A DNA stretch of 34,440 bases from Candidatus Tharpella aukensis (GTDB lineage Bacteria; Desulfobacterota; Anaeroferrophillalia; Anaeroferrophillales; Tharpellaceae): positions 1-34,440 of the forward strand of contig JAGGWR010000327.1 in NCBI GenBank assembly GCA_021163445.1. The letters run 5' to 3'. The notes under the pieces were generated by a model. The model was not told the DNA's origin, made no database searches, and worked only from the letters and a program-made list of their open reading frames with translations. Shown one piece after another: positions 9,648 through 28,392 of the stretch. Made by a program: the position numbers and the translations under genes. Within the stretch, counting starts at the first letter, position 1. Every line of letters begins with the position of its first letter.

Positions 9648-9694
9648 GGGGCCATTGCTGGTACAAGGTGCGTCAGCACCCCAGCTTTGACCCC
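9648..9694. repeat. Three-stem palindromic repeat, family A copy 1
   Basis: ggggcca-tt-gctgg-tacaa-ggtgc-gtca-gcacc-ccagc-tt-tgacccc. Confidence 0.8.
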
Positions 9695-9739
9695 GCTGGT
9701 GGAAAGCGAAGCGATGTTTGTTTTAACGGGAACCTCATA

Positions 9740-14672: not shown

Positions 14673-15902
14673 ATGCAGCGATATAAAGTAGCGATAACCG
14701 GCGTCGGGATTGTCTCTTGTCTCGGGATCGGGGCGGGAGAGGTTGCGGCTTCGCTGCGCGAGGGGCGTTCGGGGATTGTGGTTGATGAGGAGCGGCAAGC
14801 TTTGGGTTTTCGCAGTCCTTTGACCGGTCGTCTGCCGGAGGTTTTTCCTGAGCGTTGTTTAAGTCGTAAGCAGCGAAAAACGATGCCCGATTTTGCGCAA
14901 AACGCCTATGTTGCGGTGCGTGAAGCACTTGATGGTTCCGGGTTGAGTGAAAAAGATTTGCAAAACCCGCAAAGCGGCTTGATTTTTGGTTGTGATTCGA
15001 GTTGTCTGGCAGTGGTAGAGCAGGTCGATATCTTACGTCAATATGGCGAGACTCATAAACTCGGCAGTGGCCTTGTCTTTCGCGCCATGACCTCGGCCAT
15101 AACCATGAATCTTAATGTTCTGCTCGGGACTCAAGGCGCGAGTTGGACGTTGAGTTCGGCCTGTTCGAGCAGCGGTCACGCTATTGGTCAGGCAGCGGAT
15201 TTGATCGCTTTAGGTCGTCAGGAGCGAGTGGTCTGCGGCGGAGCCCAGGAAATTAACTGGGAGTCGATGTGCAGTTTTGACGCTTTGGGGGCTTTTTCGA
15301 CCAGGATTGATAATCCGGCTGCCGCTTCACGACCCTTTGATGTCGATCGCGACGGTCTGGTGCCCAGCGGCGGGGCGGCAGCGTTAGTTTTGGAAAACTA
15401 TGATCTGGCCCGGCAGCGGGGGGCAACTATTTTGGGCGAAGTTCGAGGTTACGGTTTTTCGTCGGATGGTGGCACGCTTTCGGTGCCAAGTTCTGAGGGC
15501 TTGGCCCGGGCGATGCGAGCGGCGTTGGTTGATGCGGCGATCGATGCCCAAGATGTGACTCTGCTTTTGGCCCACGCAACTTCGACGCATGCTGGCGATG
15601 CTGCGGAAGCCGAGAATATCAGATCTGTTTTTGGCGCGGATACGCCTTATATCAGCGCTTTAAAAGCGCTGACCGGACATGAACTCTGGATGGCTGGAGC
15701 GGCCACTGCGGTTTATGCTGTAATTATGGCCCAAGCTGGTTTTATGGCCCCGACGATTAATTTTACGACTCCCGATGATAAGACCACAGGATTGCATATT
15801 CTAAAGCAAACTCTATCCCACAAGCCGGAGAAGGTTCTCTGTAACGCCGCCGGTTTTGGCGGCTCCAACGCCTCTATTCTCCTTGATTTTAGTTCGCAAT
15901 GA
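14673..15902 (+). CDS. Beta-ketoacyl-ACP synthase (KS1)
   Basis: Cys motif SSACSSSGHA, first His LAHATSTHAGD, second His KALTGHELWMAGA. Confidence 0.92.
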   Translation: MQRYKVAITGVGIVSCLGIGAGEVAASLREGRSGIVVDEERQALGFRSPLTGRLPEVFPERCLSRKQRKTMPDFAQNAYVAVREALDGSGLSEKDLQNPQSGLIFGCDSSCLAVVEQVDILRQYGETHKLGSGLVFRAMTSAITMNLNVLLGTQGASWTLSSACSSSGHAIGQAADLIALGRQERVVCGGAQEINWESMCSFDALGAFSTRIDNPAAASRPFDVDRDGLVPSGGAAALVLENYDLARQRGATILGEVRGYGFSSDGGTLSVPSSEGLARAMRAALVDAAIDAQDVTLLLAHATSTHAGDAAEAENIRSVFGADTPYISALKALTGHELWMAGAATAVYAVIMAQAGFMAPTINFTTPDDKTTGLHILKQTLSHKPEKVLCNAAGFGGSNASILLDFSSQ

Positions 15903-17482
15903 AATATGATTACCTGATTATCGGTGCCGGGATCTCCGGTTTGAGCAGCGCTTTGTTGCTGGCTCGGTTTGGCTTTAAAGTGGCGGTGGTTGAGCAGGCA
16001 CCGCGACCGGCACCGTTGGTTGAGGGGTTTGTTCGCAATAATGTCTATTTTGAAACCGGTTTTCATTATGCCGGGGGGCTCGAAGATGGCGGCGTTCTTG
16101 ATCTCAACCTGCGTCTTTTGGGGATTTCCGATCATCTGCAAAAAGTTCCATTTGATCTTAAAGTTTACGATACCGTAGTTCAGCCGGAAAGTGGTTTAAA
16201 CTTCTCTTTTCCGCAAGGTTATGCGGCATTGGGCGATGCTTTGCGCGAGCATTTTCCGACTCAGCGCCAAGCTTTAAGCGAATACTTTGAACGCATACAA
16301 CAGATTACCCGGAAACTCCCTTACTACTGTTTTCCGGAGCCAGTGAAACCCGAAGATTTAGGAGAATCGTCAGCTTCGGGGCTCTCTCTCTTGCACGAGT
16401 ACAATCTGGCTCAGGTTCTTGACGAATTGGCCATTGGCGGAGAGTTGCGGACTTTGTTGCAGATCCATTGTTTGTTGCATGGTTCTTTGCCCTCCGAAGT
16501 GCCTTTTGCCATCCATGCCGGGGTTGTCGATGGCTATTATCGTTCGGCCCATACTTTTAAAGGGGGCGGCCGCGCCCTGGTTACAGCATTGGTTACGGTT
16601 TTAAAACAATGCGGGGTTGATCTTTTCTGTCGTCATAGGGTAGAAGAGATCGAGTTGAGCGCCGCCGGGGCATTTGCCGGGGTTCGTTGTACCAACGGGG
16701 TTAAGTTGCAGGCTTCAGGTTGTATCTCCACGCTGCATCCTCAGGCTATGTTGAAATTGTTACCGGCTTCGGTTTTTCGACCAGTCTATCGCCGTCGCCT
16801 GGCCGCTCTGAAAGAGAGTCCGGGGGCGGAGATTGTTTTTCTTCGCCGTGAGCGTAAGCGAGGAAGTACTCTTGGGGTGCGCTGTGAGCGCCAGCGAGGA
16901 ATTACTCCTAGAGTAGATTCGTTACCAGTTCATAATTTTCAGGGCCGTAACTTTTTTTTCCTGCCGGGATCGGGAAAAGCGATGTTTGATCCTGATCTGC
17001 CGCTTTCTGAACGTCTGCTTTATCTTAATTTTGCCGGTTCTGCTGGTTCGGACGCTTCCGACAACAATTGGGAAGGTGGCGTGACGGCGATTCTTCCGGC
17101 TCCTTACTATGAACCCGGAACCGAGGTTTCGGCAACGCTTAGTTATGCCGAAAGAAAAGCGCAAACTGGGGAACTGGTGCGTAAGCGCATTATTGAATTG
17201 TTGCCCGAACTTGGTCCCGGACTGGAAGTTGAGTGTGTGGCGACCGGTAAAACCCTGCAGCGAATCAACGCCTCGGCTCACGGTTCACTTTATGGAGTAA
17301 AGCATATGGTGGGACAATTTAATCCATCCGCAAAAACCCGTCTGCCCGGTCTTTTTCTGGCAGGCCAGGCGACTGCCGCACCCGGCCTGCTCGGGGCGAT
17401 AACTTCGGCCTTGATAACGGTTGGCGGAATCGTCGGTCACGACCGGGTCGAAGCGTTGCGGCGTGATACCGCAGGGTTGTAA
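15899..17482 (+). CDS. CrtI/retinol-saturase-like FAD-dependent oxidoreductase
   Basis: N-terminal YLIIGAGISGLSSALLLARFGFKVAVVEQ, GFHYAGG; C-terminal GLFLAGQATAAPGLLGAITSA. ATGA overlap with KS1. Confidence 0.88.
   Translation: MKYDYLIIGAGISGLSSALLLARFGFKVAVVEQAPRPAPLVEGFVRNNVYFETGFHYAGGLEDGGVLDLNLRLLGISDHLQKVPFDLKVYDTVVQPESGLNFSFPQGYAALGDALREHFPTQRQALSEYFERIQQITRKLPYYCFPEPVKPEDLGESSASGLSLLHEYNLAQVLDELAIGGELRTLLQIHCLLHGSLPSEVPFAIHAGVVDGYYRSAHTFKGGGRALVTALVTVLKQCGVDLFCRHRVEEIELSAAGAFAGVRCTNGVKLQASGCISTLHPQAMLKLLPASVFRPVYRRRLAALKESPGAEIVFLRRERKRGSTLGVRCERQRGITPRVDSLPVHNFQGRNFFFLPGSGKAMFDPDLPLSERLLYLNFAGSAGSDASDNNWEGGVTAILPAPYYEPGTEVSATLSYAERKAQTGELVRKRIIELLPELGPGLEVECVATGKTLQRINASAHGSLYGVKHMVGQFNPSAKTRLPGLFLAGQATAAPGLLGAITSALITVGGIVGHDRVEALRRDTAGL
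16844..16915 (+). repeat. In-frame tandem duplication of a 36-nt dispersed repeat module inside the FAD oxidoreductase CDS
   Basis: Units 16844-16879 and 16880-16915 align without gaps (12 codons each) and match intergenic 28282-28316. Confidence 0.85.
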
Positions 17483-17507
17483 AAATCAAATTGGGGTGGC
17501 AATGAAA

Positions 17508-17596
17508 AATGTTCAGCTGCGAGGCGCCCGAAAGCTGAGGAATGAGGCGTACAAGCAGTACGCCGCAGTGACGAAGATTGAAGGGGAACGAAGCAG
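17508..17596 (+). repeat. Structured intergenic element between the FAD oxidoreductase and KS2
   Basis: Two hairpins: cagct...agctg and ggcgtac-aagca-gtacgcc (17546-17564); ends at the KS2 start codon. Confidence 0.55.
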
Positions 17597-18838
17597 ATGG
17601 ATATTTTTCGAAGCCAGCGGCGTGTAGCGGTTACCGGAATGGGCGCAGTCTCGCCCTTTGGTCGGGGTGTTACGGCTCTGATCAGCGGCTTGGTTGAGGG
17701 GCGCAGCGCGATTAAGATTCTTGATGAACTTAAAGAGTACGGCGGCCTGAGAACCCGGCTTGCGGCGTTGGTGCCGGGGGTCGACGGAAAAGAGATTCCC
17801 CGGAGTAAGCGGCGTTCGATGTCGCGGCAATCAATTTTTGCAGTGCTTGCGGCTCAAGAAGCTCTGGCTCAAGCCGCTTTACCGGAAACCGAATATGGCA
17901 GTGGGCGTTACGGCGTCGTGGTCGGAACCACAATCAGCAGTTTAGAGACCAGCGAAAATTTTTTTGCCGATCATTTTCGGGACAAAAGTTTTTCGCGCAT
18001 GAAAACTTCGCTTTTTTTCAAGACCATGAACCATTCGGCCGCCGCCAATGTGGCCCATTTCTTTGGTCTCGAAGGTCGCCTGCTGGCCCCGGCGGCGGCT
18101 TGTGCCACCGGGTGCCAGGCTTTGGGATATGCTTATGAAATGATCGCATCAGGAGTGCAAGATGTGATGGTTTGCGGCGGTACGGAAGAGTTTCACCCGC
18201 TTTCGGCCGCAACTTTTGACTTGATGAATGCCGCCTCTTTTCGCTATAATGATCGGCCTGAGCTGGCTTCTCGTCCGTTTGACCGGGAGCGGGACGGGGT
18301 TGTTTGTGGCGAAGGAGCCGGGATTCTGGTTTTGGAAGATTTACAGTCGGCCCAAGAGCGGGGAGCGGAGATTTTGGCCGAAATCAGCGGTTTTGCGACG
18401 TTGACCGAAACCGGCAGTATTGCCGAACCCAGCAGTGCCGCCATGCAGCGTTGTATGGCTCTGGCTCTGGCGGATGCCGGGGTTGAGGCGGGATCGATCA
18501 ACTACATCAACGCCCATGCGACGGCCACCGAAAAAGGTGATACTGCTGAAGCTCAAGCTTTGCTAGGTCTTTTTGGTGATCAGATTCCGGTTAGCAGCTT
18601 AAAAGGTCATCTCGGTCATACTTTAGCCGCCAGCGGCGGCCTGGAGACCATCGCCACGATTGAAATGATGTGTCGCGGTGAACTTATCCCGACTCGTAAC
18701 CTTGACGAAATCGACCCTCGCTGCCAAGGGCCGCGAATTTTCACCGCTATCGAAAAACAGACAACCAGCCTGGCTTTAAAAAATAATTTTGCTCTGGGAG
18801 GAGTCAATTGCTCCCTGGTAATCAGAGCAGGGCAATGA
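17597..18838 (+). CDS. Beta-ketoacyl-ACP synthase (KS2)
   Basis: AAACATGCQALG, NAHATATEKGD, LKGHLGHTLAASGG; Cys-His-His all present. Confidence 0.92.
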   Translation: MDIFRSQRRVAVTGMGAVSPFGRGVTALISGLVEGRSAIKILDELKEYGGLRTRLAALVPGVDGKEIPRSKRRSMSRQSIFAVLAAQEALAQAALPETEYGSGRYGVVVGTTISSLETSENFFADHFRDKSFSRMKTSLFFKTMNHSAAANVAHFFGLEGRLLAPAAACATGCQALGYAYEMIASGVQDVMVCGGTEEFHPLSAATFDLMNAASFRYNDRPELASRPFDRERDGVVCGEGAGILVLEDLQSAQERGAEILAEISGFATLTETGSIAEPSSAAMQRCMALALADAGVEAGSINYINAHATATEKGDTAEAQALLGLFGDQIPVSSLKGHLGHTLAASGGLETIATIEMMCRGELIPTRNLDEIDPRCQGPRIFTAIEKQTTSLALKNNFALGGVNCSLVIRAGQ

Positions 18839-23378: not shown

Positions 23379-23389
23379 AAAATGGCGTT

Positions 23390-23499
23390 GTAAAAAGTTC
23401 CGATATCCTGCGTTGTTGTGATTCTCCAGACACTCGACATACTACATGTATGGTCTCGCGCCTGGAAAATCACAACAACTTGTCTATCGAAATTTTTAC
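23390..23499. repeat. Long imperfect palindromic dispersed repeat, copy 2
   Basis: About 5 differences from 55-165; arms 23414-23429 / 23462-23477 and 23390-23405 / 23485-23499. Confidence 0.85.
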
Positions 23500-23549
23500 T
23501 TAGCCATTCAGTGGCTATTAACGAATATTTCAAGATTGGGTGGTTAAAG

Positions 23550-25296: not shown

Positions 25297-27414
25297 CTAT
25301 CTTATAGCCGGTAAGGCATCAAGCATGGTGTTGTCATGGCTGTTGTTGAGTTGGAAAGCAACCAGCTTATCGCCATCTGTGGAGTAGGTGAAATAGGTGG
25401 CGCCTGCGATGCTTGTGGTGAAAAAATCGGCCGCGATTTGAACCTTTTTCTCATAAGCTCGTAGAACTATAGAACCCGTGGCGATTGTCTCTCCGGAATC
25501 GTTATAAGCCTTAAGTCTAACGGTTGTCGGAGTTGTTTCGATATTGACTAGAGCAATGCCGGTCCAACCATTTTTTTCAAGATTAGCCAGTATGCCGTTA
25601 GAACCGCCGATGCCGACTCCAGAGTAGCCAGCCAGGCGTTGGTTGTCGCTGGTGCCAAAAAGCTCAAAACCGGAGACCCCACTTGCGTTTTCAAGTTTGA
25701 TCCAGGCCGTCTCCGGCGCTAAATCAAGCGTGCTTATTGTGCCCCGATACCTGGCATAGGGTAAAAGGGTTGTGGTTTGAACTGGTAACGGCGAGCCGTT
25801 TGTAGTAAAGGGCGAGATTGTTAAGACAGATTCCGCATTAAGGGGATTGTAAACCACAATTCCCGTCCACCACTGTTGATCATCGGCGATATGAGGAAAA
25901 TAAATTTCAGTGGAACTCTTGTCACTTAATAATATTCCGCTTAATTGATTGCCGTTGCCGAAAAGTTCCAGTCCGACGACTCCGACCATCCCTTCGATAA
26001 TTGCTGAATTTATGTCTGGTTGAGGAGTGTTATCGAACAGGCTTTTTATCGAAAAGGCCCGATGCTCTCCCGGGACGAGAGTCACATTTTTCATCACTCC
26101 GTTATTAAAATAGAGAGATAATATCTTTTCCGACAGTGTCGTATTAACCAAGCTTAAACCGGTCCACCAGTGCTGATCTGAAGCGATATGAGTGATCGGA
26201 ACAGCCCCTGAGTTCAGCTGAGAGACTGCAGGTATGGCAACCCGGCAGACTTCGTCAATAAAGAATTTTATAAATCCGGTAATATTCTCGCAATCACATT
26301 CCAAAACAATATAGCCGATGGTTTCAGGATTTCTGAATTGTTCGGCAATGTTAATGACTTGACGGGCATGTGGAGACAGGTTTAAGTCGAGATTGTCGGA
26401 AACCGGTTGTCCATTATTATCATAGGCTTTGAAAACACCGCTAATCGTCTGGCGGTTATCGGGATTGAGTGCGCATATCTCAGTTTGCCAAATTCCATCT
26501 CCACTGGCCACATGAGGATAATAGAGTTTTGTGAGCGGGGCCGGAGGGTCAGGCTCGCCGGGCTCCCAGCCAGCAATTCGGGCCATCATCCACCAGAATC
26601 CACGGCCTTTGAGGATGCAGTTCAAACATTGTGAATGAGCGCAACTGGTGCAATTTTCGGTTGTTACCGTCAAATCGCTGCTAGGATTAGCGGCAATCCA
26701 GTCGCGAGCCCAGTTTAGCTTGTACTCATTACTTCTGTAGTCACAATTGTCGTTAGCCATGAGTTGCATAAAGTTGACTGCACCATCAGGATCATAACTT
26801 TCAATGTCGGCAAAATCAAAAAGAATTTTATTGTGGTTCCGGCAATAGTTGCGAATGCGCTCATTCATCTGATGGAGATTGCCCGCCGCCCCTCCGCCAT
26901 CCAGGTGGCCGGTCATATAGATGAAAGTGACTCCGGGATAGCGTTGCTCAAGCTGGTGCATGGCATTTAGGTATGTGTCGATGCCGTCAGCATTGTTGTC
27001 ACTGACTCCGCCGCACCATGACCACATAACCACATTTCGGTCATTGTCGGGATCGTTGAGCATGGTTTCCGTTGCATCTACCCATCTCAAATCTCCTCTA
27101 TGACCCAGGTCACCGGCTCCATTATTAGCCCAGTAATCATTTATGAAGACGTAGGGTTCGGCTCCCCTGCCGGAACGGGTGAAATAATATCTTGAACCTT
27201 CACTACCCCGAAAAGCGGTTATGCCGCTTATCAACTGGCTGCCATGGGAGGTATGGGAATAACCGATTCGCAGATTGTTTCTGGCCGCCTGCAACCATGA
27301 GGTGGGAATCTTGTTGATATCCGTACATTGATGGTCAACGATAAAAGCGTTGGCCTCACTATAGCTGAGGAGAGCAATTATGAGCCATACAATTGAATGA
27401 ATTATTCTTTTCAT
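25297..27414 (-). CDS. Secreted protein: N-terminal putative hydrolase-like domain plus four C-terminal repeats
   Basis: Signal peptide MKRIIHSIVWLIIALLSYSEANA with GGAGGT RBS; IGYSHTSHGSQLISGITAF, MTGHLDGGG, C-x2-C-x4-C-x2-C cluster; repeats with HIAsDqqWWTGIvvyNp motif. Confidence 0.75.
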   Translation of the reverse strand: MKRIIHSIVWLIIALLSYSEANAFIVDHQCTDINKIPTSWLQAARNNLRIGYSHTSHGSQLISGITAFRGSEGSRYYFTRSGRGAEPYVFINDYWANNGAGDLGHRGDLRWVDATETMLNDPDNDRNVVMWSWCGGVSDNNADGIDTYLNAMHQLEQRYPGVTFIYMTGHLDGGGAAGNLHQMNERIRNYCRNHNKILFDFADIESYDPDGAVNFMQLMANDNCDYRSNEYKLNWARDWIAANPSSDLTVTTENCTSCAHSQCLNCILKGRGFWWMMARIAGWEPGEPDPPAPLTKLYYPHVASGDGIWQTEICALNPDNRQTISGVFKAYDNNGQPVSDNLDLNLSPHARQVINIAEQFRNPETIGYIVLECDCENITGFIKFFIDEVCRVAIPAVSQLNSGAVPITHIASDQHWWTGLSLVNTTLSEKILSLYFNNGVMKNVTLVPGEHRAFSIKSLFDNTPQPDINSAIIEGMVGVVGLELFGNGNQLSGILLSDKSSTEIYFPHIADDQQWWTGIVVYNPLNAESVLTISPFTTNGSPLPVQTTTLLPYARYRGTISTLDLAPETAWIKLENASGVSGFELFGTSDNQRLAGYSGVGIGGSNGILANLEKNGWTGIALVNIETTPTTVRLKAYNDSGETIATGSIVLRAYEKKVQIAADFFTTSIAGATYFTYSTDGDKLVAFQLNNSHDNTMLDALPAIR

Positions 27415-27436
27415 TTCGACCTCCCGACTTCTTACG

Positions 27437-28186
27437 CTAAATTTTGACATCACTTCTTTCCGGGGACTCTTTTTCCAGTTTTTTGAAGAGGCCTTCGAGG
27501 GTCTCTTTGAGCTCTTGGACGGCTTGGCTGTCAGCCGCCCCTTTTATTGCCTGTTTCAACTCTTCCAGTTTGTTTTCGATCTCCGTCATGGTTTGCTTGT
27601 AGCTTTCCGACTCCCGGGCTTGATTGAAAGTTTGTCGTAATTGCTCGGTTTTTTCTGCGAGCGCTTTCTCCATTTTTTTGAAGTCGATTTCAGCAAAAGC
27701 CTGGCGGATATCCTGCCAGACTTTTGCCAAATCATCGGAGCTTTTTTCTAAAGGTTCTGAATTGGTCATCTCGGCCATACGTTTCTCGGCCTCTATAATT
27801 GACCAGGCAAAAGCTGAATCAACGCCAACCAATCGCGTCTCAGGGGTGATGGGATTGCCGGTTTTGTGGGAGAGTCTGACCAGGACACATTTTCTTTTGT
27901 CATTGCGTGCGTCATTATCAATAAAGAAGGATGAGGTCGAGGAGATTTGGGCGAAAAAACCTTTTTTTAGATTGATGGTCACGGCTACCTGTCGGGCATC
28001 CGCTTTGATAGCTCGGACTTTGCCGACCAGAGCACCGGAGAGATAGACATGGTCATCGACCATCAGATGTTTGGCATTGGCAAAGGTGACAGTCACATTG
28101 GATTGTCCGTCAAGACCACGAAAGATGGTGACCCCGCCAACTATCAAAAATAATGTGGCCGCCAGAAAAAATAATTTTTTGAGCAT
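27437..28186 (-). CDS. MCE/MlaD-domain protein with C-terminal coiled coil
   Basis: N-terminal TM; VTVTFANAKHLMVDDHVYLSGALVGKVRAIK; long helical tail. Confidence 0.82.
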   Translation of the reverse strand: MLKKLFFLAATLFLIVGGVTIFRGLDGQSNVTVTFANAKHLMVDDHVYLSGALVGKVRAIKADARQVAVTINLKKGFFAQISSTSSFFIDNDARNDKRKCVLVRLSHKTGNPITPETRLVGVDSAFAWSIIEAEKRMAEMTNSEPLEKSSDDLAKVWQDIRQAFAEIDFKKMEKALAEKTEQLRQTFNQARESESYKQTMTEIENKLEELKQAIKGAADSQAVQELKETLEGLFKKLEKESPERSDVKI

Positions 28187-28239: not shown

Positions 28240-28325
28240 GGGTCATTGCTGGTACACAAGGTGCGTCAGCACCCCAGGCTTCGCTGTGAGCGTAGCGAGG
28301 AAGCACTCTTGGGGTGTGTGACCCC
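28240..28325 (+). repeat. Family A repeat, copy 3, carrying a nested 35-nt module
   Basis: Outer arms ggggtca (28240) and tgacccc (to 28325) retained; insertion includes 28282-28316 cgctgtgagcgtagcgaggaagcactcttggggtg. Confidence 0.8.
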
Positions 28326-28392
28326 GTTTATGAGGGCGAAGCAAAGTTCATCCCCATTTGTTGTGACTTTATGGCGGGCGCCTGAGTGGTTA
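28326..28392 (+). repeat. Family B repeat module, copy 2
   Basis: gtttatgagggcgaagcaaagttcatccccatttgttgtgactttatggcgggcgcc. Confidence 0.75.

Follow-up and report, generated by a model that had tools for sequence, protein, structure and literature searches.

Units of a short dispersed repeat lie in frame within a FAD oxidoreductase gene and vary in number among its orthologues

Here we describe a family of 35–36-nt dispersed repeats, two units of which lie head to tail and in frame within a gene for a FAD oxidoreductase. Very probably, these units derive from a mobile element of REP/MITE-like, non-autonomous type that inserted into the gene in frame and was later duplicated, reduced or lost, most likely with neutral effect. 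The stretch of DNA analysed (the window, 34,440 nt) is the whole of contig C85 of a 3.1-Mb draft metagenome assembly in 363 contigs. Its relatives, as matched by protein, are metagenome assemblies labelled 'Deltaproteobacteria / Thermodesulfobacteriota bacterium', and the genomes compared (G001 and so on) are draft metagenome assemblies, several of them incomplete.

The host gene (15899–17482, plus strand) encodes a 527-aa CrtI/CrtD/phytoene-desaturase-like protein, assigned by matches to Pfam (Amino_oxidase, 1.3e-18), NCBIfam (CrtD, 1.4e-22, a score under that model's cut-off) and PDB (phytoene dehydrogenase 4dgk, E = 1.1e-11), and is flanked by ketosynthase genes on both sides. Unit 1 (16844–16879, plus strand; residues 316–327, RRERKRGSTLGV) is directly followed by unit 2 (16880–16915, plus strand; residues 328–339, RCERQRGITPRV), which is identical to it at 28 of 36 positions, is degenerate at its 3′ end and has an orthologous counterpart in G001, G003 and G007. 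The preliminary description had placed two gap-free 36-nt units at 16844–16915, and these match letter for letter, each adding 12 residues; the frame 15899–17482 runs uninterrupted across both, and together they make up residues 316–339. The AlphaFold model of the enzyme is poor (mean pLDDT 45.9, 10 sequences) and gives no surface placement of the insert. In it, residues 319–344 form an unordered stretch between strands 310–317 and 351–354, with a pLDDT of ~27 for the insert coil. Because this model stretch is unordered and the gap in the alignment to 4dgk falls at the unit site, the insertion site is likely to be a tolerated turn, the kind of site that has been proposed for intragenic REPs generally (PMC3733652).

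Comparison of the orthologues by protein-level and codon-level alignment revealed two units in the window's own genome, G001, G003 and G007, one unit in G008 and in G010, degenerate units in G012 and a possible unit relic in G006; G011, whose contig ends within the unit, was left out of the count. The units are absent from the FAD oxidoreductase of G009, from that of another genus (G014) and from Geobacter homologues. The empty site in G009 reads GTTTTTCTC^TCATCGCCGCAAGCC (^ marks the insertion point), as against GTTTTTTTG^72 nt^CGGTCGCTGCAAGCC in the filled site of G003, and the flanking residues are contiguous in G009, as an alignment proposed in the preliminary description was to reveal. 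From the insertion point to the next conserved block G009 has eight codons, and taking 36n nt out of the other genomes leaves the same eight, which shows the insertion to be exact. The single unit of G008 begins like unit 1 and ends like unit 2. In the neighbouring-gene tree, G009 groups with G003 and G007 (support 93.8/94) and is nested within the unit-bearing clade, and unit carriers occur in both of the branches into which the genus first divides. Parsimony thus favours one old insertion with a later duplication, a contraction in G008 and an exact loss in G009, although exchange with an empty allele would leave the same pattern as exact loss.

The module is dispersed well beyond this gene, as the preliminary description expected of a genome search. 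Sequence searches of genomes provided the census; in the window's own genome, where the query was the 91 nt around the copy at 28282, ~20 copies were found, with unit 1 at E = 1.1e-8 and other copies at values down to ~3e-33. Within the genus, the module pattern gave 40 matches versus 0 for a control pattern read backwards, and modules occur in 11 of the 13 genomes, with up to 28 matches in G001. They are spread over three genera of the class (the genus itself, g2 and g5), including genera whose FAD oxidoreductase has none. In the rest of the phylum, 377 other genomes yielded 2 single matches, a level similar to that of the backwards control (1 match); the plasmid and phage collections searched contained no match, nor did an Rfam search of the window return one. 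As far as searched, the element thus appears, by its sequence, to be confined to one class of deltaproteobacterial (Thermodesulfobacteriota-like) bacteria.

Three subfamilies can be distinguished: 35 nt within a composite repeat, 35 nt with other flanks, and 36 nt as solo or tandem units. The preliminary description had equated the genic units with an intergenic 35-nt copy. That copy is present, as an exact match, at 28282–28316 (plus strand), but it belongs to the separate composite 35-nt subfamily, lodged in a host repeat (B, below). The element-strand consensus, CACCCCAAGAGTACTTCCTCGCTNNCGCTCANGGCG, has imperfect inverted ends (CACCCCAAGAG versus CTCAGGGCG) that are clear only in GCCCTGAG variants, and the 94 aligned copies begin with CACCCC and end with GGCG or CAGCG on this strand. 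Folded as DNA, the solo module does no better than shuffles (z −0.45 and −1.35), and a composite 47-mer that includes the left arm folds at z −3.1. Between genes, two 36-nt units stand in tandem at orthologous positions, G007:C43:6135–6206 (L087) and G003:C49:23249–23320 (L108); the second unit has decayed in G003, and from the divergence of this pair it follows that the element is not tightly constrained everywhere.

Further evidence of movement comes from larger repeats in which the module is nested. Host repeat A is a MITE-like sequence of ~120 nt with terminal inverted repeats (TGGCAAAGTAAAATGT / ACATTTTACGAAGCCA) and 26 matches in the window's own genome; an empty copy (17495–17618, plus strand) lies just 3′ of the FAD oxidoreductase gene, before the ketosynthase gene, in this genome and in G003, and is absent there in G007 and G008. 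Modules occupy several different positions within repeat A. Taking 36 nt out restores an uninterrupted repeat A at GAGGCGCG^CGAAACC (L014), at GGGCAA^CGAAGCAGG, where the module is in opposite orientation (L009), and at TAACGAAG^CAG, with one host G missing nearby (L070). Elsewhere the module sits as a 35-nt form at GGTTG^AGGG, one A short of the host (L068), and as a 26-nt deleted form at CATATG^CAAGG (L198). Host repeat B is filled with the module at 28256–28344 (plus strand); parts 6–27 and 67–91 of the 91-nt query recur at many places without it, and a repeat search of the window found its empty form at 9663–9695 (plus strand). Being nested in two larger dispersed repeats, the module moves or has moved. 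Insertions are clean and the junction is mostly G^C; the filled site minus 36 nt equals the empty site, a result in which a target duplication of 1–2 nt (G or GC) is indistinguishable from none. Several copies of host repeat A in G012 are fused to the module (for example, C309:6765–6860, C236:3325–3421 and C87:4151–4247), as though repeat and module had spread together as a composite.

Y1 transposase genes (RAYT/IS200-type) were found in 9 of the 13 genomes. No module was present at the 20 Y1 loci examined with flanks of ~1.5 kb where the contig allows, and the module-rich G003 and G009, both incomplete assemblies, show no Y1 transposase gene; on these grounds we rejected a RAYT as the mobiliser.

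The element has also entered two other protein-coding genes. In the window's own genome, a NuoC-like gene (Complex1_30kDa) contains exactly 36 nt, CACCCCGAGAGTACTTCCTCGCTAACGCTCACGGTG, between GCACCG and CCTGTAGAG, and its open frame is 201 aa long compared with 189 aa in six relatives; the NuoC gene of G012 is likewise without the insert. In the FtsQ-like gene (POTRA_1, FtsQ_DivIB_C) of G003 and G007, the element, again exactly 36 nt, lies between AGGCCG and CAAAC, whereas G001 has the empty site AGACCG^CAAACG; eight genomes lack the insert. Both elements are oriented opposite to the copy in the FAD oxidoreductase gene and add HPKSTSS-type peptides near the C-terminus, and the relatives with empty sites are without exactly those 12 residues. 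Together with the empty site of G009 and the variable copy number, these exact insertions uphold the suggestion in the preliminary description that a mobile, partly palindromic repeat had inserted in frame. The FtsQ-like frame of G007 (G007:C2:16816–17652, L244) has an in-frame TAG soon after the 36-nt insertion, and the G003 frame continues without a stop as far as the shared end.

Four of the six frames of the 36-mer consensus are free of stops, and its length corresponds to 12 codons. The 36-nt form accounts for all three genic insertions but for only 26 of the 80 non-genic copies, a chance of ~0.03 if the three are independent events; reading frame is therefore likely to act as a filter on genic insertions. 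The coding copies had been thought to have gained an extra base that keeps the frame, but as the 36-nt form is common outside genes, the base was not gained for that reason. Five loci (L155, L028, L079, L170 and L167) were not counted as genic, because each falls in the first part of a stop-to-stop frame, which most likely precedes the actual start codon.

These data allow us to propose a course of events. An element of 35–36 nt, presumably mobilised by an enzyme, would insert mostly at G^C junctions and leave no resolvable target duplication. Where the 36-nt form entered genes, some of these insertions would survive because it consists of whole codons and is open in most frames. Probably already in the genus ancestor, or earlier still, one such insertion would have struck the turn of the FAD oxidoreductase, and the unit would then have been doubled head to tail, either through slippage or because another copy inserted at the GTG^CGC junction made by the first. 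Later events would have left one hybrid unit in G008 and removed the insert exactly in G009, and two further insertions would have reached the C-terminal tails of NuoC and FtsQ. The effect on the proteins would most likely be neutral, as the inserted residues would fall in a disordered loop or tail.

If an old insertion simply decayed neutrally, its units would not be expected to show the extreme synonymous conservation seen here. In G001, G003 and G007, third codon positions are identical in 23 of 23 unit codons versus 123 of 303 codons outside, and the best other contiguous 23-codon stretch of the gene reaches at most 16. This identity cannot come from selection on the peptide. An appreciable, if lesser, possibility that is compatible with insertion of a mobile element is that the units are kept identical as DNA, whether by gene conversion among copies, including the dispersed ones, by repeated insertion, by interspecies exchange or by a function of the element's DNA or RNA. 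The first three are the simple candidates, with a function at the DNA level as a further possibility. The ~13 codons upstream of the insert (about 303–315, window 16805–16843) also have unusually conserved third positions, at 0.85–0.94 versus a mean of 0.65, when scored within the clade of the window's own genome, G001, G003 and G007, in which the comparisons are not independent, and the codons downstream are not unusually conserved in this clade; this raised upstream conservation favours an exchange tract. Against identity maintained at the DNA level stand the divergence of the intergenic tandem pair shared by G007 and G003 and the negative Rfam result for the window.

A bolder version of the mobile-element account, which we regard as rather unlikely, would have the element still active and precisely excising as 36-nt mobile DNA, with an enzyme joining the ends at G^C and conversion homogenising the array of 12-codon cassettes. 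If so, its 36-nt length would let the element enter and leave genes as a reading-frame cassette. Improbable, in our assessment, is a true exaptation as claimed in the preliminary description, in which the 12-residue block would have a function in the enzyme and selection would have retained and duplicated it for its basic peptide. The block does occur in most of the genus, in the same frame and always open, but the number of units varies from 0 to 2 among orthologues with exact absence in G009, overall its amino acids are conserved no more strongly than those elsewhere in the enzyme, in contrast to its third positions, and in the weak structural model it falls in a low-confidence coil between two strands. 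Birth of a minisatellite within the gene by local slippage, with only a chance likeness to the intergenic repeats, would fit the head-to-tail layout and the resemblance of the G008 unit to a slippage hybrid of units 1 and 2, but it is hardly credible given the same 36-mer genome-wide and copies in genera without a genic unit, and the same insert in NuoC and FtsQ rejects it as the origin, leaving slippage to explain at most the duplication.

Insertion of a mobile element in frame has precedents. Rickettsia palindromic elements (RPEs; Ogata et al. 2000, 2002) are described as dispersed and found in frame in unrelated protein genes (PMC10969869, PMC2229807). Judged from these descriptions, the present element resembles them in its mode of working, that is, in-frame insertion into unrelated conserved genes, presumed to be tolerated in loops; in the FAD oxidoreductase, NuoC and FtsQ, too, it lies in frame at sites that are empty in orthologues. 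The RPEs covered by these descriptions measure ~105–150 bp, whereas the present element has 35–36 nt and, at one site, is arrayed in tandem with a variable number of units. Short elements of the CGTC type are present in R. conorii as well (PMC3733652). GTAG/CGTC REPs (Di Nocera et al. 2013) are 20–40 bp long, partly palindromic and present in dozens of copies as singles and dimers; they occur inside coding regions in many species and sometimes inside other palindromes, and the CGTC type is also found without a flanking transposase (PMC3733652). Like these, the present element is short, has many copies per genome and lies inside genes and other repeats; unlike them, it carries no unpaired end tetranucleotide, GTAG/CGTC appearing only in the variable middle of the 94 aligned copies. 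Because the family has neither REP end tags nor, among the Y1 loci examined, any copy beside a Y1 transposase gene, we do not file it as REP. REPINs are inverted REP doublets attributed to RAYTs, and exact excisions of them have been seen in population sequencing (PMC3116915); the present element is similarly miniature and non-autonomous, but solo or direct-tandem and without RAYT association among the Y1 loci examined.

A CRISPR repeat was rejected, as the tandem units abut without a spacer and the other copies are solitary. The small dispersed repeats of cyanobacteria, reportedly described by Elhai and colleagues in 2008, are said to be very small, mobile and nested in other repeats, with filled and empty sites; by that account, the present element differs in belonging to another phylum and in its genic in-frame tandem insertion. 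The kind of element is thus already known from RPEs and intragenic REPs, and the most fitting label for the present family is REP/MITE-like, new and untagged, with protein-coding insertions. Small selfish DNA that was captured in frame and so contributed protein sequence has been documented mainly in Rickettsia and a few REP-rich bacteria, and here an unrelated lineage presents the same outcome with an unusually clean record of exact empty and filled sites in three genes. This record, in which a single site holds 0, 1 or 2 units across a known tree, opens two questions to testing: whether the inserts are neutral ballast or have been tuned as parts of the protein, and how a 36-nt element moves.

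Two other features of the window were observed. A 718-aa open frame (25297–27453, minus strand) without a Pfam match adjoins an MlaD-like gene. A 143-nt repeat is present in two copies that are 92% identical (48–190 and 23382–23524), with inverted ends around ACTTTTTACGA, and from this arrangement it looks like another MITE-type element.
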